From contig NC_014166.1 of the NCBI RefSeq assembly GCF_000092245.1, forward strand, positions 2,666,001-2,730,000: a stretch of DNA of 64,000 nt, read 5' to 3'. This document shows, one piece after another, positions 29,452-38,068 of this stretch (position 1 is the first letter of the stretch; every line of letters starts with the position of its first letter). The position numbers and the translations under genes were made by a program. The notes beneath the pieces were generated by a model, which ran no database searches, was not told the DNA's origin, and saw nothing but the letters and a program-made list of their open reading frames with translations. This stretch comes from Arcobacter nitrofigilis DSM 7299. GTDB taxonomy: Bacteria; Campylobacterota; Campylobacteria; Campylobacterales; Arcobacteraceae.

Positions 29452-29501
29452 TAAATTTTATCTTAAATTTTCAAATTTAGATAGATTTAAGCGAAATACT
29501 A

Positions 29502-29530
29502 TTGACAATATTGCATTTTTTTAATATTAT
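29502..29530 (+). promoter_or_regulatory. Sigma-70 promoter of the tRNA cluster
   Basis: A full consensus -35 box TTGACA (29502-29507) is separated by exactly 17 bases from TATTAT (29525-29530). Transcription would start about 10 bases before tRNA-Gln. It is the clearest two-box promoter seen in the window, as expected for stable RNA. Confidence 0.85.
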
Positions 29531-29546
29531 TTCAGTCCATTTTGAT

Positions 29547-29621
29547 TGGGGTATCGCCAAGTGGTAAGGCCTCGGCTTTTGGTGCCGATATTCGCAGGTT
29601 CGAATCCTGCTACCCCATCCA
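29547..29621 (+). tRNA. tRNA-Gln (anticodon TTG)
   Basis: Cloverleaf with acceptor TGGGGTA/TACCCCA, T-loop GTTCGAATC and anticodon loop TTTTGGT giving TTG. CCA is encoded. The discriminator base reads as T, which is unusual. Confidence 0.93.
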
Positions 29622-29637
29622 AATTGTTTTTTTATGT

Positions 29638-29724
29638 GCGAGTGTGGCGGAATAGGTAGACGCGTGGGACTTAAAATCCCATTCCGGTTTCGGAGTATCG
29701 GTTCGATTCCGATCATTCGCACCA
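29638..29724 (+). tRNA. tRNA-Leu (anticodon TAA)
   Basis: Class II tRNA of 87 nt with a long variable arm (CCGGTTTCGG region). Acceptor GCGAGTG/CATTCGC, anticodon loop with TAA, T-loop GTTCGATTC, encoded CCA. Confidence 0.95.
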
Positions 29725-29731
29725 TAAAAGA

Positions 29732-29808
29732 GCGGGAGTAGCTCAGTTGGCTAGAGCTTCTGCCTTCCAAGCAGATTGTCGCGAGTTCGAGTCTCGTCTC
29801 CCGCTCCA
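29732..29808 (+). tRNA. tRNA-Gly (anticodon TCC)
   Basis: Acceptor GCGGGAG/CTCCCGC, anticodon loop CTTCCAA giving TCC, T-loop GTTCGAGTC, encoded CCA, 77 nt. Confidence 0.95.
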
Positions 29809-29822
29809 CTTTTTCATGTAAT

Positions 29823-31649: not shown

Positions 31650-31704
31650 AATATATCCTTTTTTATTTCCCGATTATATGAACAATAAACTTAAATCTAA
31701 ATTA

Positions 31705-31725
31705 TAATGATAATAAGTATCATTA
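31705..31725. promoter_or_regulatory. Fur-box-like palindrome upstream of the metal locus
   Basis: Centre AATGATAATAAGTATCATT: 8-bp perfect inverted arms (including one flanking base each side) with a 5-base spacer. It fits the 19-bp Fur box pattern and lies between the divergent hypothetical gene and the small ORF at 31783. Confidence 0.65.
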
Positions 31726-31749
31726 ATATTACTTTAAGGTCACAATAAG

Positions 31750-31762
31750 TATCATATTGATA
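31750..31762. promoter_or_regulatory. Second Fur-box-like half-site pair
   Basis: TATCATATTGATA has 5-bp inverted arms and lies 20 bases before the small ORF at 31783. Together with 31705-31725 it suggests tandem operators. Confidence 0.45.
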
Positions 31763-31782
31763 ACAATAATCAAGGTTAGAAA

Positions 31783-31914
31783 ATGAAAAATATTAAAAAG
31801 TTTTCTTTATATGAAAAAAATTTAAAGATTCATAGTAATCTATGGAAAGTCTATTATTCTGCAATATTTATTGCCATTTCCTTTGTCATAATAAAAGATT
31901 TAATTAATGCCTGA
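31783..31914 (+). CDS. 43-aa single-helix membrane protein upstream of the Fur-family gene
   Basis: ATG at 31783 opens a 43-codon frame: a lysine-rich N-terminus followed by one hydrophobic helix (VYYSAIFIAISFVIIKDL). The stop overlaps the next gene's start by 8 bp, which favours a real, coupled gene. The ribosome-binding site is weak (AAGG about 9 bases upstream). Function unknown. Confidence 0.45.
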   Translation: MKNIKKFSLYEKNLKIHSNLWKVYYSAIFIAISFVIIKDLINA

Positions 31915-32356
31915 AAAAAACGAACTTCAATTTAATAACTTATTAAAAAAATACAGACAACACTTTAAAAACCTAAGATTAAAAAATACTATACAAAAAG
32001 ATTATCTACTAAAGACTTTATACTATTCAGAATCTCACTTAAGCGCAGAAAAACTAACTAAAGAATTAAAAGCTCAATACAAAATAAATATATCTATTAC
32101 AACAGTGTATAAGATTTTAAAGTTATTTGAAGAACTTAAAATAGTAAAATGTTTAAAAGTCCTTGAAAATGCAAAATTCTATGAATTAAACTTTTCTAAC
32201 CATAACCATCTTATTTGTAACTCTTGCCATACGATTATTGAATTTAAAGATCAAGTTATAGAAAAAAAACAACTATCAATAGCAAAAAGCAATAATTATA
32301 TTCTTAAAGATAATGTAATGACTATATATGGGTTATGCCCCAAATGCCAAAAATAA
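31907..32356 (+). CDS. Fur-family metal-responsive repressor
   Basis: This 149-aa protein has the Fur family layout: an N-terminal winged helix (about residues 25-90, with SAEKL and ISITTVYKILKLFEEL as recognition region), then a dimerisation domain. The regulatory metal ligands HNHLIC and two CxxC pairs (C104/C107 and C144/C147) form the structural zinc site. The length and N-terminal extension fit Fur or PerR; sequence alone does not separate them. It lies at the head of a metal-related cluster between Fur-box-like palindromes, so local and self-regulation is likely. Confidence 0.85.
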   Translation: MPEKNELQFNNLLKKYRQHFKNLRLKNTIQKDYLLKTLYYSESHLSAEKLTKELKAQYKINISITTVYKILKLFEELKIVKCLKVLENAKFYELNFSNHNHLICNSCHTIIEFKDQVIEKKQLSIAKSNNYILKDNVMTIYGLCPKCQK

Positions 32357-32371
32357 AGCAAAATCTTTTTT

Positions 32372-32384
32372 GATAATGATTATA
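32372..32384. promoter_or_regulatory. Fur-box-like site before the HMA_2 gene
   Basis: GATAATGATTATA, with palindromic core ATAAT-G-ATTAT at 32373-32383, resembles the GATAATGAT repeat of Fur boxes. It is in the 86-bp gap between the Fur-family gene and the HMA_2 gene. Confidence 0.55.
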
Positions 32385-32442
32385 AATTTACAATAAGATA
32401 TTATTAAGATTATACATATAATATTCTACAAAAGGACTAAAG

Positions 32443-32757
32443 TTGATTACTACAGAAGAGATTATAAATATTGCAAAATTTTTTACAATAATTGCACATA
32501 CTCCAGGAAGATTAAGAGTAAGAGTTAATCCTAAAATAAAAGATTCTGCTGGGAATATTTCCATTGAAGATATAGAAAAACTACCAGAAAAGATATCTGG
32601 AATAGAACATATTAAAATAAATAAAATTATTGCCTCAGTTACAATTAAATATGACCCAAAAATATTCAAACCTAAAACTTGGGAAGATTTAATAAATCAA
32701 AAAAACATAGATGAAATAACTATTTTAATAAACAATTTAGCAAAGGAGGTTATTTAA
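32443..32757 (+). CDS. HMA_2-type small protein (ferrosome FezC-like candidate)
   Basis: This 104-aa protein has a ferredoxin-like heavy-metal-associated fold of the HMA_2 type. It contains IIAHTPGRLRVRV, then a helix, then HIKINKIIASVTIKYDP. It has no CxxC, so classical soft-metal binding is unlikely. The P1B ATPase at 34346 has a related N-terminal domain (VHQTSSRLRYKYF). The start is TTG with AAAGGA seven bases upstream; no ATG is available nearby. It abuts the next gene. Ferrosome (fez) loci are reported to pair HMA-domain proteins with a P1B-6 ATPase, so a role in that context is inferred. Confidence 0.7.
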   Translation: MITTEEIINIAKFFTIIAHTPGRLRVRVNPKIKDSAGNISIEDIEKLPEKISGIEHIKINKIIASVTIKYDPKIFKPKTWEDLINQKNIDEITILINNLAKEVI

Positions 32758-33435
32758 TTGGAAACAAATATAGATGAGCAACTTTTAACAAGTGCCAGAG
32801 TTGATATAAATAGTCAAATACCTATCACAACTCAAATACTTAGAATTGCTGTATATGATGAATACAAAGCTTATGAAACCTATACAAAGATAATCGAAAA
32901 GTTTGGTTTAGTACAGCCATTTGTAAATATCAAAGAAGCAGAAGCAATTCATTATGGTGCTTTGATTAAGCTAATGGAAAAGTACGCAGTTGAAGTGCCT
33001 GTTAATGATTGGTATGAAAAGATTGAAATTCCAAATACAATTATTGAGTGTTGTGAGATGGGTGTTGCAGCTGAAATTAATAATATAGCAATGTATAATA
33101 ATCTATTAAGTCATGTAACTCAAGATGATATAAAAAATGTACTTTATCAATTACAAGCGGCATCTTTTAATAACCATTTACCAGCTTTTAGAAATGCTGT
33201 ACTTATGCATTATACAAGCAATACAAATGCAAATGTAAATCAAGAAAATATGATGGAAAAACTTGGGGAATATCAAGTATTACTAGATGAGATTATGTCA
33301 GGAAATATTGATGAAAATTCAATTACAAAAATATTTTCAAAACTTAATTTATCTATGACAAGTGGGGCTGTTTTTGGTGGTGCAATCATTGCACTTATGA
33401 ATAATTATATTTCTAAAAATCAAAATGAGGAGTAG
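32758..33435 (+). CDS. Ferritin-like domain protein
   Basis: The 225-aa protein has four predicted helices of a ferritin-like bundle. Candidate iron ligands are E35 and E40 (YDEYKAYETY), E62 and H65 (EAEAIHY), E106 (VAAEINNIAMY) and H140 (SFNNH). The second site lacks the usual Glu of an ExxH motif. A C-terminal segment (GAVFGGAIIALMNNYI) is hydrophobic and could anchor it in a membrane. It starts with TTG directly after the previous stop, behind AAGGAGG. Function in iron oxidation or storage is inferred from fold and neighbours. It resembles DUF2202-like proteins. Confidence 0.65.
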   Translation: METNIDEQLLTSARVDINSQIPITTQILRIAVYDEYKAYETYTKIIEKFGLVQPFVNIKEAEAIHYGALIKLMEKYAVEVPVNDWYEKIEIPNTIIECCEMGVAAEINNIAMYNNLLSHVTQDDIKNVLYQLQAASFNNHLPAFRNAVLMHYTSNTNANVNQENMMEKLGEYQVLLDEIMSGNIDENSITKIFSKLNLSMTSGAVFGGAIIALMNNYISKNQNEE

Positions 33436-33438
33436 AAA

Positions 33439-33660
33439 ATGCCATTACCATTCTTAATCGGTGTAGCCGTAGGAGCAGGTGCTGTACTTGCATATAACAA
33501 ATCAGATAAAGTGAAAACAAAAACAGATGAAATAGTTGGTAAATCAAAAGAATTTGCAAATGAAACATTAACCAAAACTAAAAAAAATGTTAGTGAATTA
33601 AAAGATAATTTATGTTCAAAAAAAGAGACTAAAGAAAAAATAGAAAAGGAAGAAAAATGA
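33439..33660 (+). CDS. Small membrane protein, YtxH-like
   Basis: The 73-aa protein has one N-terminal glycine/alanine-rich helix (LIGVAVGAGAVLAYN) and a long, lysine-rich amphipathic helix. This YtxH-like layout is seen in small envelope proteins. It starts 3 bp after the ferritin-like gene and overlaps the next gene by 4 bp. Several proteins of this cluster share the pattern, which suggests membrane scaffolding. Function unknown. Confidence 0.65.
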   Translation: MPLPFLIGVAVGAGAVLAYNKSDKVKTKTDEIVGKSKEFANETLTKTKKNVSELKDNLCSKKETKEKIEKEEK

Positions 33661-34019
33661 AAGAGATCGTTATAAATACAGGAACTCCAAGAAATGTTCT
33701 AGGACATGTAATTAGTGGAGCTATTGCATCTGCTGTTGTTAGTGGAGCTATAAATTATAAAAAAGTAAAAGCAAATGAAGTAGAAAAAAAAGCTGCAATA
33801 AAAGATACTATTAAAAAGACTTCACAAGGAGCAATTGCAACTGGTGCTGCTATTGCTACTGCTAATTATTTAGGTGAAAAAGGTGGCTTATTAAAAGCTG
33901 TTACTGCACTTTCTGTTGGAGCAATGGGAATTTATGCCATAGAAGTTATTGAAGAACAGCTTGATAAAAAATATCTAACAAATGAAAACTGTCTTTTGGA
34001 AGAGGAAATAAATGAATAA
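33657..34019 (+). CDS. Small two-helix membrane protein resembling MamC
   Basis: The 120-aa protein has two glycine/alanine-rich hydrophobic segments (about 15-35 and 85-103). The connecting part is EVEKKAAIKDTIKKTSQGAIATGAAIATAN, and an acidic tail follows. The order of elements recalls magnetosome protein MamC/Mms13: helix, EAxxDTxKEAxGAGxATA-like link, second helix, then YAxxxxxxxIEKEL-like end (here YAIEVIEEQL). The similarity is by eye. MamC contacts magnetite in magnetotactic bacteria, so an iron-mineral-related role is conceivable. It overlaps both neighbours. Confidence 0.55.
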   Translation: MKEIVINTGTPRNVLGHVISGAIASAVVSGAINYKKVKANEVEKKAAIKDTIKKTSQGAIATGAAIATANYLGEKGGLLKAVTALSVGAMGIYAIEVIEEQLDKKYLTNENCLLEEEINE

Positions 34020-34353
34020 TAAATACGATATAAACATAGAAAATAGTAGACCAAGTGATATAAAAACTACTGCTAATATAAACCAAAACCCATATATAAA
34101 TCAAAATGCAAATTTTATAAATAATCCACAACAACAAAATATTGAACAAGCACAAAGCGGATTTAATACAGGAGATTTTGTAAAAGGTGCGTTAATAGGT
34201 GCAGCAGTTACATATTTACTTACAAATAAAAATGCCCAAGAAAAAGCTATGCAAGTCTTTGGAAAAGGAAGTGAACTTTTTCAAGCAGGAATTGAAGAGT
34301 TAAAAGAGAAGTATGAAGATATGAAAGCCCAAATGCAAGCAAATAATGAATAA
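34012..34353 (+). CDS. Small membrane protein with Asn/Gln-rich N-terminus
   Basis: In this 113-aa protein the first 50 residues are rich in N and Q and look disordered. One helix (FVKGALIGAAVTYLLTN) is followed by an amphipathic stretch (ELFQAGIEELKEKYEDMKAQ). It overlaps its neighbours on both sides by 8 bp, so it is translated within the operon. The GAxxGAA helix matches those of the other small proteins here. Function unknown. Confidence 0.6.
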   Translation: MNNKYDINIENSRPSDIKTTANINQNPYINQNANFINNPQQQNIEQAQSGFNTGDFVKGALIGAAVTYLLTNKNAQEKAMQVFGKGSELFQAGIEELKEKYEDMKAQMQANNE

Positions 34354-36460
34354 AGCTATGAGTAATAAATTTATTAAAGTACATCAAACCTCTTCAAGGC
34401 TTAGATATAAATATTTTTTACTAAAAGAAAAATTTATAGATGAAGGTATCTTAAAAAAATACCTTGAAAAAATCAAGCATGTTGAAAGTGTACGAATAAA
34501 TAAAAAAGCCTATTCAATTATATTTGAGATAAATAAAGACATTACAAGTGAAATTGAGTCTATTTTAAGTAAATTAACACTTGATGAACTCTTAAGTAAT
34601 TGTCAAAATGAAGCCGTTTGTGTATCTTGCATAAGTGATGAAGAACCATCAATAAAAGGTATGGTAAGAGCTTCTAGTGCACTAATTTCTGAAAGATTTG
34701 TTAGCAATAATTTATTAAAAGCTAGCATTACTACAAGTGCATCTATCCCTCTTCTAATTGATGGTTCAAAAGAACTTTTAGAGGAAGGTCTTACTTCAAA
34801 GGTTTTAGAAAGTGCAGCTGTTGCCATCTCAATTTATAGAAAAGATTATCTTGCTGCAAATTCTACAAATATGATGCTTGAACTTGGTGAATATATAGAA
34901 GAGACTACTGTTCATAAAAGTGATGATTTATTAAAAGAGTTAGCCAAACCAAATGTAGAAGAAGCTTGGGTTGAAAAAGTAGTTGATGGAAAGATAACTG
35001 AGGTTTTAATCAAAAGTAATGAAGTACAAGTTGGAGATATAGTGGTTGTTGGTATTGGAAATACAATACCAGTTGATGGACATATTCTTGAAGGAACAGG
35101 TAGTGTAAACCAAGTATCTATGACAGGAGAAGCTGAACCAGTTGTAAGATATAGAGGTGATAGAGTTATCTCTGGAACTATTGTAGAAGAAGGAAGATTT
35201 AGAATCTGGGCTGAACATGTAGGTTCAGATACAGCAACTCAAAGAATCAAACATTACATAGAAAATTCACTAAATGAAAAATCATCAGTTCAATTAAAAG
35301 CAAATAAATTAGCAAATAAATTAGTTCCTGTAACACTTGGACTTGCTGGTGTTTCATATATATTTGCAAGGGATTTTGAAAGGGTTGCTTCTATTTTGCA
35401 AGCAGATTACTCTTGTGCTTTAAAACTAGCAACTCCAGTTGCTTTTAAATCAACTATTTCAAAAGCTGGACATAATGGTATTATGATAAAAGGTGCAAAA
35501 TCTATTGAAGCACTTAGCAATGCAGATACCTTTGTATTTGATAAAACTGGTACTTTAACTTGTGGGGAGCTTGAAGTAATCTCAGTAGAATCTTATAGTG
35601 ATGATTGGACAGAAGAGGAAGTATTAAATCTAACTGCTTCAACGGAAGAGCACTATTTCCATCCAGTTGCTGAAGCTGTTGTAAAAGCAGCAAAAGAGAG
35701 AGGTTTTGTACATATGCACCATGAAGAAGTAGAGTTCATAGTTGCACATGGAGTTAAAACAGAAGTAAAAGGAAAATCTGTAGTAATAGGAAGTAGACAT
35801 TTTGTTGAAGATGATGAAAAAATAGACTTCTCTGAACATAAAGATAAAATCAATAATTCACTAAAAAATGGTAAAACTCTACTTTATATTGGTTATGATG
35901 AAAAGCTTTTAGGAACTATTGGACTCTCTGATGAATTAAGGGAAAATACAAAAGAATCTATTAGTAAACTAAGAAAACTAGGTGTCAAAAATATCATAAT
36001 GTTAACAGGTGATACGAAAGAAAAAGCAAAACTTATTGCCGATGAAATTGGTATTGATGAAATACGAGCAGAATTACTCCCACAAGACAAAGCAAAAATA
36101 GTAAAAGAGCTTATGAGTGAAGGGAAAAAAGTTGCATTTATTGGAGATGGAATAAATGATGCACCTGCATTAATATCTGCCCATGTTGGAATATCTATGA
36201 GCAGAGGTGCCGATATTGCAAAAGCAACTGCTGATATTAGTCTTTTAAAGGATGATATCGCCTGCGTTGTTGAAGCAAAAGAGTATGCTAATAAAACGAT
36301 GAATTTGATTAATAACAATTTCAATGCAACAGTTGGAATCAACTCTTGCATACTTGCAGGTGCTACATTTGGCTTATTTTCTCCAATTGTAACAGCTGTT
36401 TTACATAATGGGACAACCATTGGATTATTGCTTAATTCAATAAGGGGTGTCAAGCAGTAG
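34346..36460 (+). CDS. fezB: P1B-type ATPase with SCA motif (P1B-6; ferrosome FezB-like)
   Basis: This 704-aa heavy-metal P-type ATPase has an HMA_2-like N-terminal domain (VHQTSSRLRYKYF). The actuator motif MTGEAEPV lies near residue 258, the phosphorylation site DKTGTLT at D399, the P1B-typical His-Pro of the nucleotide domain at H439 (YFHPVAE) and the hinge GDGINDAPAL near 600. The ion-binding membrane motif is Y-S-C-A-L (S356, C357, A358) instead of CPC, SPC or TPC. As I recall the families, SCA marks the P1B-6 group that includes ferrosome FezB. Copper transport is therefore unlikely. It is co-translated with the small membrane proteins. Iron specificity is inferred. Confidence 0.8.
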   Translation: MNKAMSNKFIKVHQTSSRLRYKYFLLKEKFIDEGILKKYLEKIKHVESVRINKKAYSIIFEINKDITSEIESILSKLTLDELLSNCQNEAVCVSCISDEEPSIKGMVRASSALISERFVSNNLLKASITTSASIPLLIDGSKELLEEGLTSKVLESAAVAISIYRKDYLAANSTNMMLELGEYIEETTVHKSDDLLKELAKPNVEEAWVEKVVDGKITEVLIKSNEVQVGDIVVVGIGNTIPVDGHILEGTGSVNQVSMTGEAEPVVRYRGDRVISGTIVEEGRFRIWAEHVGSDTATQRIKHYIENSLNEKSSVQLKANKLANKLVPVTLGLAGVSYIFARDFERVASILQADYSCALKLATPVAFKSTISKAGHNGIMIKGAKSIEALSNADTFVFDKTGTLTCGELEVISVESYSDDWTEEEVLNLTASTEEHYFHPVAEAVVKAAKERGFVHMHHEEVEFIVAHGVKTEVKGKSVVIGSRHFVEDDEKIDFSEHKDKINNSLKNGKTLLYIGYDEKLLGTIGLSDELRENTKESISKLRKLGVKNIIMLTGDTKEKAKLIADEIGIDEIRAELLPQDKAKIVKELMSEGKKVAFIGDGINDAPALISAHVGISMSRGADIAKATADISLLKDDIACVVEAKEYANKTMNLINNNFNATVGINSCILAGATFGLFSPIVTAVLHNGTTIGLLLNSIRGVKQ

Positions 36461-36508
36461 TAATTGATAATAGTTATTAGTTTTATTTAAGTTTCTTTAG
36501 ATAAAATA

Positions 36509-36525
36509 TTGATAATTATTATCAA
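36509..36525. promoter_or_regulatory. Fur-box-like perfect palindrome
   Basis: TTGATAATTATTATCAA: 7-bp perfect arms with a 3-base centre, 11 bases before the small ORF at 36536. A weaker related palindrome is at 36468-36479. It suggests a separate iron-responsive promoter for the last two genes of the cluster. Confidence 0.65.
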
Positions 36526-36535
36526 AAGGATAAAT

Positions 36536-36655
36536 ATGCCATTTTTATTACCACTTGCCACAACTTTAACAGCAATTTTAACAGTGAAAACTATAAATAA
36601 AACTGCAAAAGTTCTAGATAAAAGGAAAAAAAGAAATGAAAGAAATGCCAATTGA
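36536..36655 (+). CDS. 39-aa membrane peptide of the metal locus
   Basis: ATG preceded by AAAAGGA, then one hydrophobic segment (FLLPLATTLTAILTV) and a very basic tail (DKRKKRNERN). The start MPFLLP recalls MPLPFLIG at the start of the YtxH-like protein. It overlaps the next ORF by 20 bp. Too short to assign. Confidence 0.5.
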   Translation: MPFLLPLATTLTAILTVKTINKTAKVLDKRKKRNERNAN

Positions 36656-36872
36656 TTTAGAGATTCAAAAAGAAGCTGCAAAAATTGGAATGACAGCAAC
36701 ACTTGGAGCTACGGTTGTAACTTCAATGTTTATGAAAAATAAAACTGCTAAAAGAGTGCATGTAATAGCTGGCGTTGCTTTTTGTGGATTTGCATTATGG
36801 CATCACATGTTGTACCAACCAAAAAATAAAAGTAAAAAATCTAATACCTTACAAGAAAGCGAAGGGTATTAA
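36636..36872 (+). CDS. Small membrane protein at the end of the metal locus
   Basis: The 78-aa protein has two short hydrophobic stretches (TATLGATVVTSMFM and VIAGVAFCGFALWHHMLY) and a lysine-rich tail. The WHHMLY end of the second helix could bind haem or metal, which is speculative. It overlaps the upstream 39-aa ORF and ends at a palindrome shared with the converging ORF at 36869-36994. Confidence 0.55.
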   Translation: MKEMPIDLEIQKEAAKIGMTATLGATVVTSMFMKNKTAKRVHVIAGVAFCGFALWHHMLYQPKNKSKKSNTLQESEGY

Positions 36873-36893
36873 TACCCTATTGCTTTTTTTAAC
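36862..36893. terminator. Bidirectional hairpin between converging genes
   Basis: AGGGTATTAATACCCT is a perfect 16-bp palindrome (36864-36879), followed on the + strand by TTGCTTTTTTT. It covers the stop codons of the genes converging from both sides. Confidence 0.6.
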
Positions 36894-37002: not shown

Positions 37003-37503
37003 CTAATTAAAATCATTTTTTATGTAAGAGATCCATTTTGAAACTCTTTGCTCGGTCAAATCATCTTGAGTATCTTCGTCTAAAGCTAAACCTACAAATT
37101 TATTATCGATAAAAGCTTTTGAGTCATCAAAATCATATGAATCATCTCTCTCCCATTCCCCTACTACATTTGCACCCAAACTTTTTATTTCTTCGTAAAC
37201 AATTCCCATAGCATCTAGATAAGTATCTGGATAGCCATCTTGATCTCCCAAGCCAAATAAGGCTACTTTTTTTGATGAAAAATCTACTTTTTTCAACTGC
37301 TCAAAATTGTCATCCCAATCATCTTGTAAATCACCATCTCCCCAAGTAGAGATTCCAAATATTACATTTTCATATTCGTTCATTTTTTCTAAACTTACAT
37401 CTGCAATATCATGTATTTCATCTATTGATAACTCTTTTGCTATTTGTTCTGCTATATTTGAAGTATTTCCAGTACTACTTGCATAAAATATTGCTGTTTT
37501 CAT
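37003..37503 (-). CDS. fldA: Flavodoxin (long-chain)
   Basis: Flavodoxin is a soluble FMN electron carrier that can replace ferredoxin when iron is scarce, or serve oxidoreductases such as pyruvate or 2-oxoglutarate oxidoreductase. The phosphate-binding loop SSTGNTSNIAEQIA begins at residue 9, the isoalloxazine-contact region FGISTWGDGDLQDDW follows near 50, and GLGDQDGYPD near 88. The 166-aa length indicates the long-chain type, and the protein is strongly acidic. It overlaps the upstream 147-aa gene by 29 bp. Fur-box-like palindromes upstream of that gene suggest iron control. Confidence 0.93.
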   Translation of the reverse strand: MKTAIFYASSTGNTSNIAEQIAKELSIDEIHDIADVSLEKMNEYENVIFGISTWGDGDLQDDWDDNFEQLKKVDFSSKKVALFGLGDQDGYPDTYLDAMGIVYEEIKSLGANVVGEWERDDSYDFDDSKAFIDNKFVGLALDEDTQDDLTEQRVSKWISYIKNDFN

Positions 37504-37918
37504 TACAACCCCTTTTTTTTATAATGTCATTTAACGAATAAGGTATCAATTTAACCATATATTCATCACCAGATTCTTCAAGCAATGGAATTTTTACTTG
37601 AATATGTTTATTGAAGTTTCTATTTTTTGGATAAACAAAATATACGTATTTATATTCACTATTTAATACTATGTTGCATGCCATTTTTACTTCATCTTTT
37701 ATTGATAAGCTTTTTTTATCCATATTTGTACATAAAGGAATAACTCTAATAGATGGGTGATTTGATAAAACAATATCGATGCAACCTTCATATTTTTCAA
37801 CAAATCTATTTTTTGTATTTCTTGCTATTTTTTTATACACATAATTAAAAAAGTTTTCATTTGTGTTTTTATTATCATGTATTGAATTAATTAAATTAGT
37901 ACATTCATTAAAACTCAT
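37475..37918 (-). CDS. Conserved-looking hypothetical protein upstream of flavodoxin
   Basis: I do not recognise this 147-aa soluble protein. It has a central region with EKYEGCIDIVLSNHPSIRVI, then YKYVYFVYPKNRNFNKHIQ and a conserved-looking acidic/basic C-terminus. No membrane segment or classic catalytic motif is evident. The gene overlaps flavodoxin by 29 bp, which implies tight co-expression, and its start follows AAGGAT. In Campylobacter jejuni, hypothetical genes also accompany fldA, so this may be an equivalent partner; homology was not tested. Confidence 0.65.
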   Translation of the reverse strand: MSFNECTNLINSIHDNKNTNENFFNYVYKKIARNTKNRFVEKYEGCIDIVLSNHPSIRVIPLCTNMDKKSLSIKDEVKMACNIVLNSEYKYVYFVYPKNRNFNKHIQVKIPLLEESGDEYMVKLIPYSLNDIIKKRGCNENSNILCK

Positions 37919-37933
37919 ATTCTATCCTTTATA

Positions 37934-37950
37934 TTGATAATCAATATCAA
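37934..37950. promoter_or_regulatory. Fur-box-like palindrome for the flavodoxin operon
   Basis: TTGATAATCAATATCAA: 6-bp arms with a 5-base centre, 16 bases before the first gene of the flavodoxin operon. Confidence 0.6.
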
Positions 37951-37987
37951 GTATTATAAATAAATAGAACTTAATATTTTCTTATTA

Positions 37988-38002
37988 TGATAATAATTAT
38001 CA
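37988..38002. promoter_or_regulatory. Fur-box-like palindrome between flavodoxin operon and sucC
   Basis: TGATAATAATTATCA: perfect 7-1-7 palindrome matching the 7-1-7 model of a Fur box. It lies 70 bases upstream of 37918 and 123 bases before sucC, so it could serve either promoter. Confidence 0.6.
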
Positions 38003-38068
38003 AAATATATTTGTTTTATGCTTCCTTTCTTTCTAAACTAATTAAGCAAATTTCTATATCAATTTAGA

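Follow-up and report, generated by a model that had tools for sequence, protein, structure and literature searches.

The window analysed here is a 64,000-nucleotide stretch of the Arcobacter nitrofigilis DSM 7299 genome (NC_014166.1, positions 2,666,001 to 2,730,000). The plus strand of the window contains, at 31783-36872, a locus of ten genes (o1, fur, hma, ferl, sA, sB, sC, fezB, o9 and o10) that is, as judged from its genes, a fez (ferrosome) operon (Table 1). The original prediction, made from the letters of this DNA, had placed a Fur-family repressor, an HMA_2 protein without CxxC, a ferritin-like protein, at least four very small membrane proteins and a P1B ATPase within 5 kb, nearly all translationally coupled. 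All of these elements are present at the positions given; hma contains no cysteine at all, and the small membrane proteins number six (o1, sA, sB, sC, o9 and o10). Adjacent genes overlap by 8 nucleotides (o1/fur), 4 (sA/sB), 8 (sB/sC), 8 (sC/fezB) and 20 (o9/o10), whereas hma and ferl abut (0 nucleotides) and ferl and sA are 3 nucleotides apart. The only exceptions to the coupling are two real gaps of 86 nucleotides between fur and hma and 75 nucleotides between fezB and o9, each of which contains a Fur-box-like sequence. First-pass family searches gave weak matches to MamC for sB, YtxH for sC and DUF4405 for o10, and matched ferl to DUF2202/Rubrerythrin and the ATPase to heavy-metal P-type ATPases.

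Table 1. Genes and sequence features of the fez locus in the window.
Feature	Position	Strand	Description
Fur-box cluster before o1/fur	31703-31771		19-mers at 31703, 31709 and 31753 matching at 16/19, 15/19 and 14/19
o1	31783-31914	+	43 residues, one transmembrane segment; coupled to fur; in about nine relatives, mostly beside fur
fur	31907-32356	+	Fur-family repressor; PF01475, E=4e-26
Fur box before hma	32372-32390		15/19
hma	32443-32757	+	HMA_2, zero cysteines; PF19991, 31.2 bits (cut-off 30)
ferl	32758-33435	+	ferritin-fold DUF2202 protein with C-terminal glycine-zipper tail
sA	33439-33660	+	small glycine-zipper membrane protein, FezA-like architecture
sB	33657-34019	+	MamC-family membrane protein
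sC	34012-34353	+	FezA-type protein immediately 5' of fezB
fezB	34346-36460	+	FezB-type P1B ATPase; SCA motif, HMA_2-like N-terminus
Fur box before o9-o10	36505-36525		16/19; inverted repeat 8+8 TTGATAAT-T-ATTATCAA at 36509-36525
o9	36536-36655	+	39 residues, one transmembrane segment; conserved in Arcobacteraceae
o10	36636-36872	+	candidate small heme protein, FezC-like (DUF4405-like); H42 and H56 invariant
Terminator-like hairpin	36863-36878		locus end; consensus match only

Synteny in Campylobacterota was surveyed as had been suggested with the prediction. The ATPase was detected at E≤1e-100 in 26 of the 60 related genomes scanned, and 26 neighbourhoods were fetched. The order hma-ferl-sA-sB-sC-fezB-o9-o10 is the same in most of them, at protein identities of 30-95%. 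Since this order recurs in about 20 related genomes, the arrangement is not due to chance. A FezB-type ATPase is encoded by 65 of 200 sampled Campylobacterota genomes, which are related to each other and therefore not independent. The locus, which the prediction took for an Arcobacteraceae version, is conserved across Arcobacteraceae but not confined to this family: it occurs also in Campylobacter, Helicobacter and Sulfurospirillum and, including the ferritin-like gene, in Thauera/Pseudothauera. The entire cluster is also carried by 133-kb Arcobacter plasmids from chicken meat (L030 and L035; CP129951.1 and CP134847.1). TonB receptors and a ChaN lipoprotein are encoded close by on one of the plasmids, and one plasmid of the pair has a split FezB. 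A stop codon interrupts FezB in a genome of the same genus (L037:7601-9700).

The ion-binding site of the window ATPase is DYSCALK, which contains the expected SCA motif. In a tree of 112 ATPases, the window sequence belongs to a single clade (98*) of 89 SCA-type sequences, which also holds those of Rhodopseudomonas palustris, Desulfovibrio and Firmicutes. The CPC pumps, among them the two CPC paralogs of the A. nitrofigilis genome, fall outside this FezB clade, and a divergent Fusobacterium sequence with SCG is positioned just outside it. The motif and the clade are those of a P1B-6-like, fez-type pump, as had been proposed. Clustering among Cu, Zn or Co exporters would have spoken against the original prediction; the ATPase groups with FezB-type pumps instead, and the tree together with the SCA motif in place of CPC rules out its identification as such an exporter. 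Relatives of FezB lacking SCA, with DFATG, DYGTG and other sequences at the site (L125, L128, L131, L133 and L134), constitute a separate group (98*) beside the FezB clade, and the cyanobacterial ones have HMA-like genes upstream. In three Arcobacteraceae genomes, a second P1B ATPase of the CPC type, on a long branch, is encoded directly 5' of hma (L050:2957-5110, L052:2865-5051 and L060:3013-5205).

P1B ATPases are usually exporters, and vesicles cannot be demonstrated by sequence alone. The locus could accordingly be read as a system for efflux of Fe2+, or of another metal, across the inner membrane to the periplasm under stress, with the small proteins as accessories and no organelle. We consider this improbable. 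The pump groups with FezB-type and not with CPC exporters, and its FezA-type, MamC-family and HMA partners match those of the R. palustris operon.

The ferrosomes of R. palustris CGA009 are formed by the products of six genes, RPA2333-2338 (PMC12016538). We compared the window with the corresponding cluster of R. palustris strain XCP (L119), one of 80 loci obtained by a scan of named genomes; the loci of Shewanella putrefaciens, Desulfovibrio magneticus and Clostridioides difficile lie outside this set. One reading of the XCP cluster gives six genes, for a FeoC-like protein (PF09012, 3e-12), HMA, a small zipper protein, sB, sC and FezB. Profiles from Campylobacterota and the plasmids matched its HMA (1e-11), sB (5e-5), sC (5e-22) and FezB (2e-224), and the small zipper gene was assigned solely from its position and motif. 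The HMA_2, small zipper, MamC-family, FezA-type and FezB genes thus follow in the same order as in the window. The R. palustris operon differs in the absence of a ferritin-like gene, in the FeoC-like gene at its head, in the position of the FezC-like protein gene about 3 kb upstream, and in that no o9 was seen; feoB is located directly upstream of it.

The small gene immediately 5' of fezB in Desulfovibrio and Firmicutes aligns with sC, sharing invariant GxxxG, KE, D and A columns. Residues G59, G63, K98, E99, D103 and A106 of sC are invariant in 23 sequences that include those from Desulfovibrio and Firmicutes. Profile comparison of FezA-type proteins with sC gave an hhalign E of 2e-6, and that with sA an E of 3e-6. 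In C. difficile fezAB, fezA is directly upstream of fezB (PMC11651100), a position similar to that of sC. By alignment and position, sC is a FezA-type protein. The Desulfovibrio fezABC operon of the D. magneticus type and C. difficile fezAB, compared through related loci, share with the window the small FezA-type protein directly 5' of FezB, and Desulfovibrio also has HMA_2 and a heme-type membrane part, FezC. Relative to these systems, the window has the additional genes ferl, sA, sB and o9.

Desulfovibrio FezC is one fused protein, whereas the counterparts of its two halves appear in the window to be encoded apart, toward either end of the operon. The FezC-like protein encoded 3' of Desulfovibrio fezB consists of HMA_2 joined to a membrane part in which two histidines are spaced 14 residues apart. 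Its N-terminal half matches hma (hhalign E=2e-9). Heme b is bound by FezC, which is DUF4405-like (PMC11334425). DUF4405 was matched by 17 of 21 o10 homologs at E≤0.05 (best 3e-5), with the window o10 itself falling below the cut-off, and H42 and H56 of o10 are invariant among homologs and have the same 14-residue spacing as the Desulfovibrio histidines. We read hma and o10 as the two halves of a split FezC, of which o10 is likely the heme half. At L050:9368-10006 and L091:10416-11018, the o10 domain forms a fusion with a SpoIIAA-like domain (PF11964).

These comparisons change one part of the original prediction. It had recognized the small membrane proteins, missing the last gene, o10, as FezC-like, and had held them not to be standard fez parts. 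The latter claim is not supported for most of them: sC is of the FezA type, and HMA, sB and sC, like FezB, have counterparts in the R. palustris operon, which is also at odds with a lack of fez relatives at every gene. Profile comparison with the R. palustris, gammaproteobacterial and Desulfovibrio operons rules out that the small proteins are novel non-fez parts. The FezB clade, the FezA signature and the R. palustris match all agree with the proposed ferrosome-type locus.

The NCBIfam MamC profile was matched by 31 of 33 sB proteins (best 6e-10), and the sB of the window scored 17.1 bits against NF038051, below the curated cut-off of 100 bits. None of nine locally shuffled sB proteins matched. 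Searches of the whole genomes of R. palustris, Rhodomicrobium, Rhodospira, Kluyvera and Photobacterium reported one MamC-like site per genome, which in R. palustris is the fez sB gene. At E≤0.05, the profile also matches weakly in 4 of 14 control genomes, and lone weak hits were not counted as evidence. In the reverse search of true-MamC loci with sB profiles, MamC was the top match, with E down to 3e-17. A profile built from Campylobacterota sB only matched MamC with E of 1e-10 to 6e-4 (profile-profile E 3e-9). Among 491 open reading frames (ORFs), it recovered every one of the 22 sampled MamC loci over the family cut-off, and its matches among 10,846 ORFs were fez sB genes only. Other glycine-rich fez proteins compared with MamC gave E of about 0.01 or worse. 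The shuffled sequences, the selectivity of the reverse search and the non-matching glycine-rich fez proteins rule out a chance match of low-complexity sequence.

The homology extends over about 96 positions, and the model of sB has three helices with a mean predicted local distance difference test score of 91. Genes for sB are also present in the fez operons of R. palustris and Gammaproteobacteria, and two Rhodospirillales intermediates are located in fez clusters. The MamC-like part that had been suspected is thus confirmed by reciprocal profile searches with clean controls, which identify sB and MamC as one family by descent; the same function is not implied. It is conceivable that MamC even derives from a fez protein, although the tree, being unrooted, gives no direction.

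The homology of sB to MamC (Mms13) of magnetotactic bacteria is real and could suggest a magnetosome-like system that forms magnetite. This is very improbable. The match of sB reaches 17 of 100 bits, and a short unrooted tree separates sB from MamC (100/98), with 16 true MamC sequences apart from sB. The MamC loop acts on the size and shape of magnetite crystals through the acidic pair Asp66/Glu70 (PMC6206293). Mapped by motif spacing, nearly all MamC proteins have D-x3-E at this site, whereas the sB proteins of Arcobacteraceae have D-x3-K/R and so lack the second acidic residue. The gene neighbourhood of MamC is different, and no further magnetosome gene was seen at the locus.

The part added in operons of the Campylobacterota type is ferl. 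The DUF2202 profile matched ferl with 26.2 bits (cut-off 22). The AlphaFold model contains a confident four-helix bundle at about residues 23-156, followed by a low-confidence tail, and structure comparison identified the fold as that of bacterioferritins. The nearest protein in sequence and fold is the DUF2202 protein MJ0754 (PDB 3q4n; E=3e-8, Z 16.6, root-mean-square deviation 1.8, 26% identity). The predicted metal ligands of ferl, E35, E62xxH65, E106 and H140, follow the E, ExxH, E, H pattern of MJ0754-type proteins. Down to about 30% identity, they are nearly invariant in Arcobacteraceae (with one exception, L049), many Helicobacteraceae and Thauera. A ferroxidase activity of ferl would be consistent with this fold and ligand set. 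Unlike MJ0754-type proteins, ferl has a glycine-zipper tail, at about residues 197-216, and is linked exclusively to fezB in Campylobacterota. It is present in 61 of the 200 Campylobacterota genomes; in all 61 it adjoins fezB, 0.8-1.2 kb upstream on the same strand, and no ferl away from fezB was found in this sample. The A. nitrofigilis genome also encodes an ordinary ferritin and further genes of the ferritin superfamily. The fold, the ligand set and the linkage to fezB bear out the ferritin-like protein as an added part.

The tail of ferl resembles the zippers of other fez proteins and that encoded by a Pro-rich gene, which in Gammaproteobacteria takes the place of ferl in the operon (hhalign E=5e-5). 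It seems, therefore, that a ferritin domain has been joined to a standard zipper anchor. The ferritin domain is probably positioned at the cytosolic face of the ferrosome membrane. Within a ferrosome-building operon, ferl could instead be a structural scaffold or adaptor with a vestigial metal site and no role as an iron enzyme. The gammaproteobacterial gene, with a Pro-rich domain on a similar zipper and no ferritin domain, fits such a role. So do the homologs from most of the sampled Campylobacteraceae, in which ExxH and the helix-D histidine are lost while E106 and the tail glycines are kept. As a general explanation we find the scaffold rather unlikely, since the near-invariance of E35, E62, H65, E106 and H140 in Arcobacteraceae, many Helicobacteraceae and Thauera would be unexpected without metal binding. 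Operons retaining such a pseudo-ferritin are those of L174-L198, mostly from Campylobacteraceae, and L094.

Iron regulation of the operon, which had been predicted, is supported at the sequence level by Fur boxes. Matches of at least 16/19 to the Fur consensus are expected 0.17 times per 64 kb. The seven best matches in the window (at least 15/19; 0.9 expected) belong either to this locus or to the region preceding the neighbouring flavodoxin operon. This opposite-strand operon, behind Fur boxes at 37930-38007, encodes a 147-residue protein without a Pfam match (37475-37918) and the flavodoxin (37003-37503). Elsewhere in the window, an ORF at 29477-29809 on the minus strand has a translation resembling read-through of a tRNA cluster and is probably spurious. 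The genome encodes four Fur paralogs, among them the fur gene of the locus. In relatives, fur is near fez in many but not all cases, and in several feoB lies between the two. Fur is thus ruled out as an obligatory part, being separated or missing in many relatives.

Genes for feoA, feoB or feoC are found beside fez in relatives. The fetched flanks of 23 of 112 loci contain feoB-like genes, including the one upstream of the R. palustris operon, and those of 13 contain feoA. The Fur boxes of the window and the feo genes beside its relatives point to ferrous iron. The feo genes would fit iron balance by efflux equally well; the Fur boxes suggest expression during starvation, which is the wrong time for an exporter.

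Several observations count against a ferrosome-building operon that includes ferl. Its assignment to fez depends on a match to R. palustris at the level of the species, on cited secondary papers and on gene order. The direct profile comparison of o10 with the FezC C-terminus is weak (hhalign E=6e-4, probability 29%). In relatives, the region preceding hma shows only a mild enrichment of Fur boxes (26% versus 6% at ≥14/19). Finally, ferl gives no match to the classical ferritin/bacterioferritin profile PF00210, and its ligand set has no counterpart of the helix-D Glu found in classical ferritins, so that the helix-D ExxH ligand is missing (F or Y in place of Glu in Arcobacteraceae). Taking these points into account, we still regard it as very probable that the window contains a fez operon that builds ferrosomes, an organelle inferred here from its genes, with ferl as a tail-held addition.

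Based on these gene identities, a mechanism of iron storage can be proposed. Under iron starvation, repression by Fur would be lifted, as the Fur boxes suggest, and the fez proteins would be made. A vesicle may then be shaped by sC and sA, FezA-type proteins with glycine zippers, and by the MamC-family protein sB, after their insertion into the membrane. As iron becomes available again, FezB would pump Fe2+ from the cytosol into the vesicle, while the cysteine-free hma and the HMA-like domain of FezB itself may dock or meter the iron. Electron transfer across the vesicle membrane is presumably the role of the putative heme protein o10, which is FezC-like, and would allow iron to be stored or released. 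The glycine-zipper tail would hold ferl at the ferrosome membrane, where ferl may bind or oxidise Fe2+ and feed or buffer FezB. In most Campylobacteraceae, ferl probably became a scaffold without a metal site.

A broader proposal has two parts. Ferrosomes and magnetosomes would share, by descent, a mineral-control membrane protein (fez sB/MamC), and the ferrosome of Campylobacterota would be a hybrid store, with a ferritin-fold ferroxidase that is anchored on the vesicle by its tail and operates with FezB. Most Campylobacteraceae would then have lost this function and kept the protein as a scaffold. We advance the two together tentatively, as a possibility that we do not yet favour. A literature search, outside which Grant 2022 and Pi 2023 fell, found no paper joining ferrosomes and Arcobacter, and among the papers examined ferrosomes were mentioned alongside MamC or ferritin-like proteins only incidentally.

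As a rule, iron storage by lipid-bound organelles, by ferritins and by magnetosomes is discussed as three separate solutions. A single operon that encodes a pump of the FezB type together with a ferritin-fold protein tethered to the membrane and a homolog of MamC makes the relation of the three stores testable by genetics, for which nature offers variants with ferl intact, degenerate or absent and with FezC fused or split. Ferrosomes are predicted in Arcobacter and in Campylobacter- and Helicobacter-type species, in which iron storage under limitation by the host would be of medical interest.

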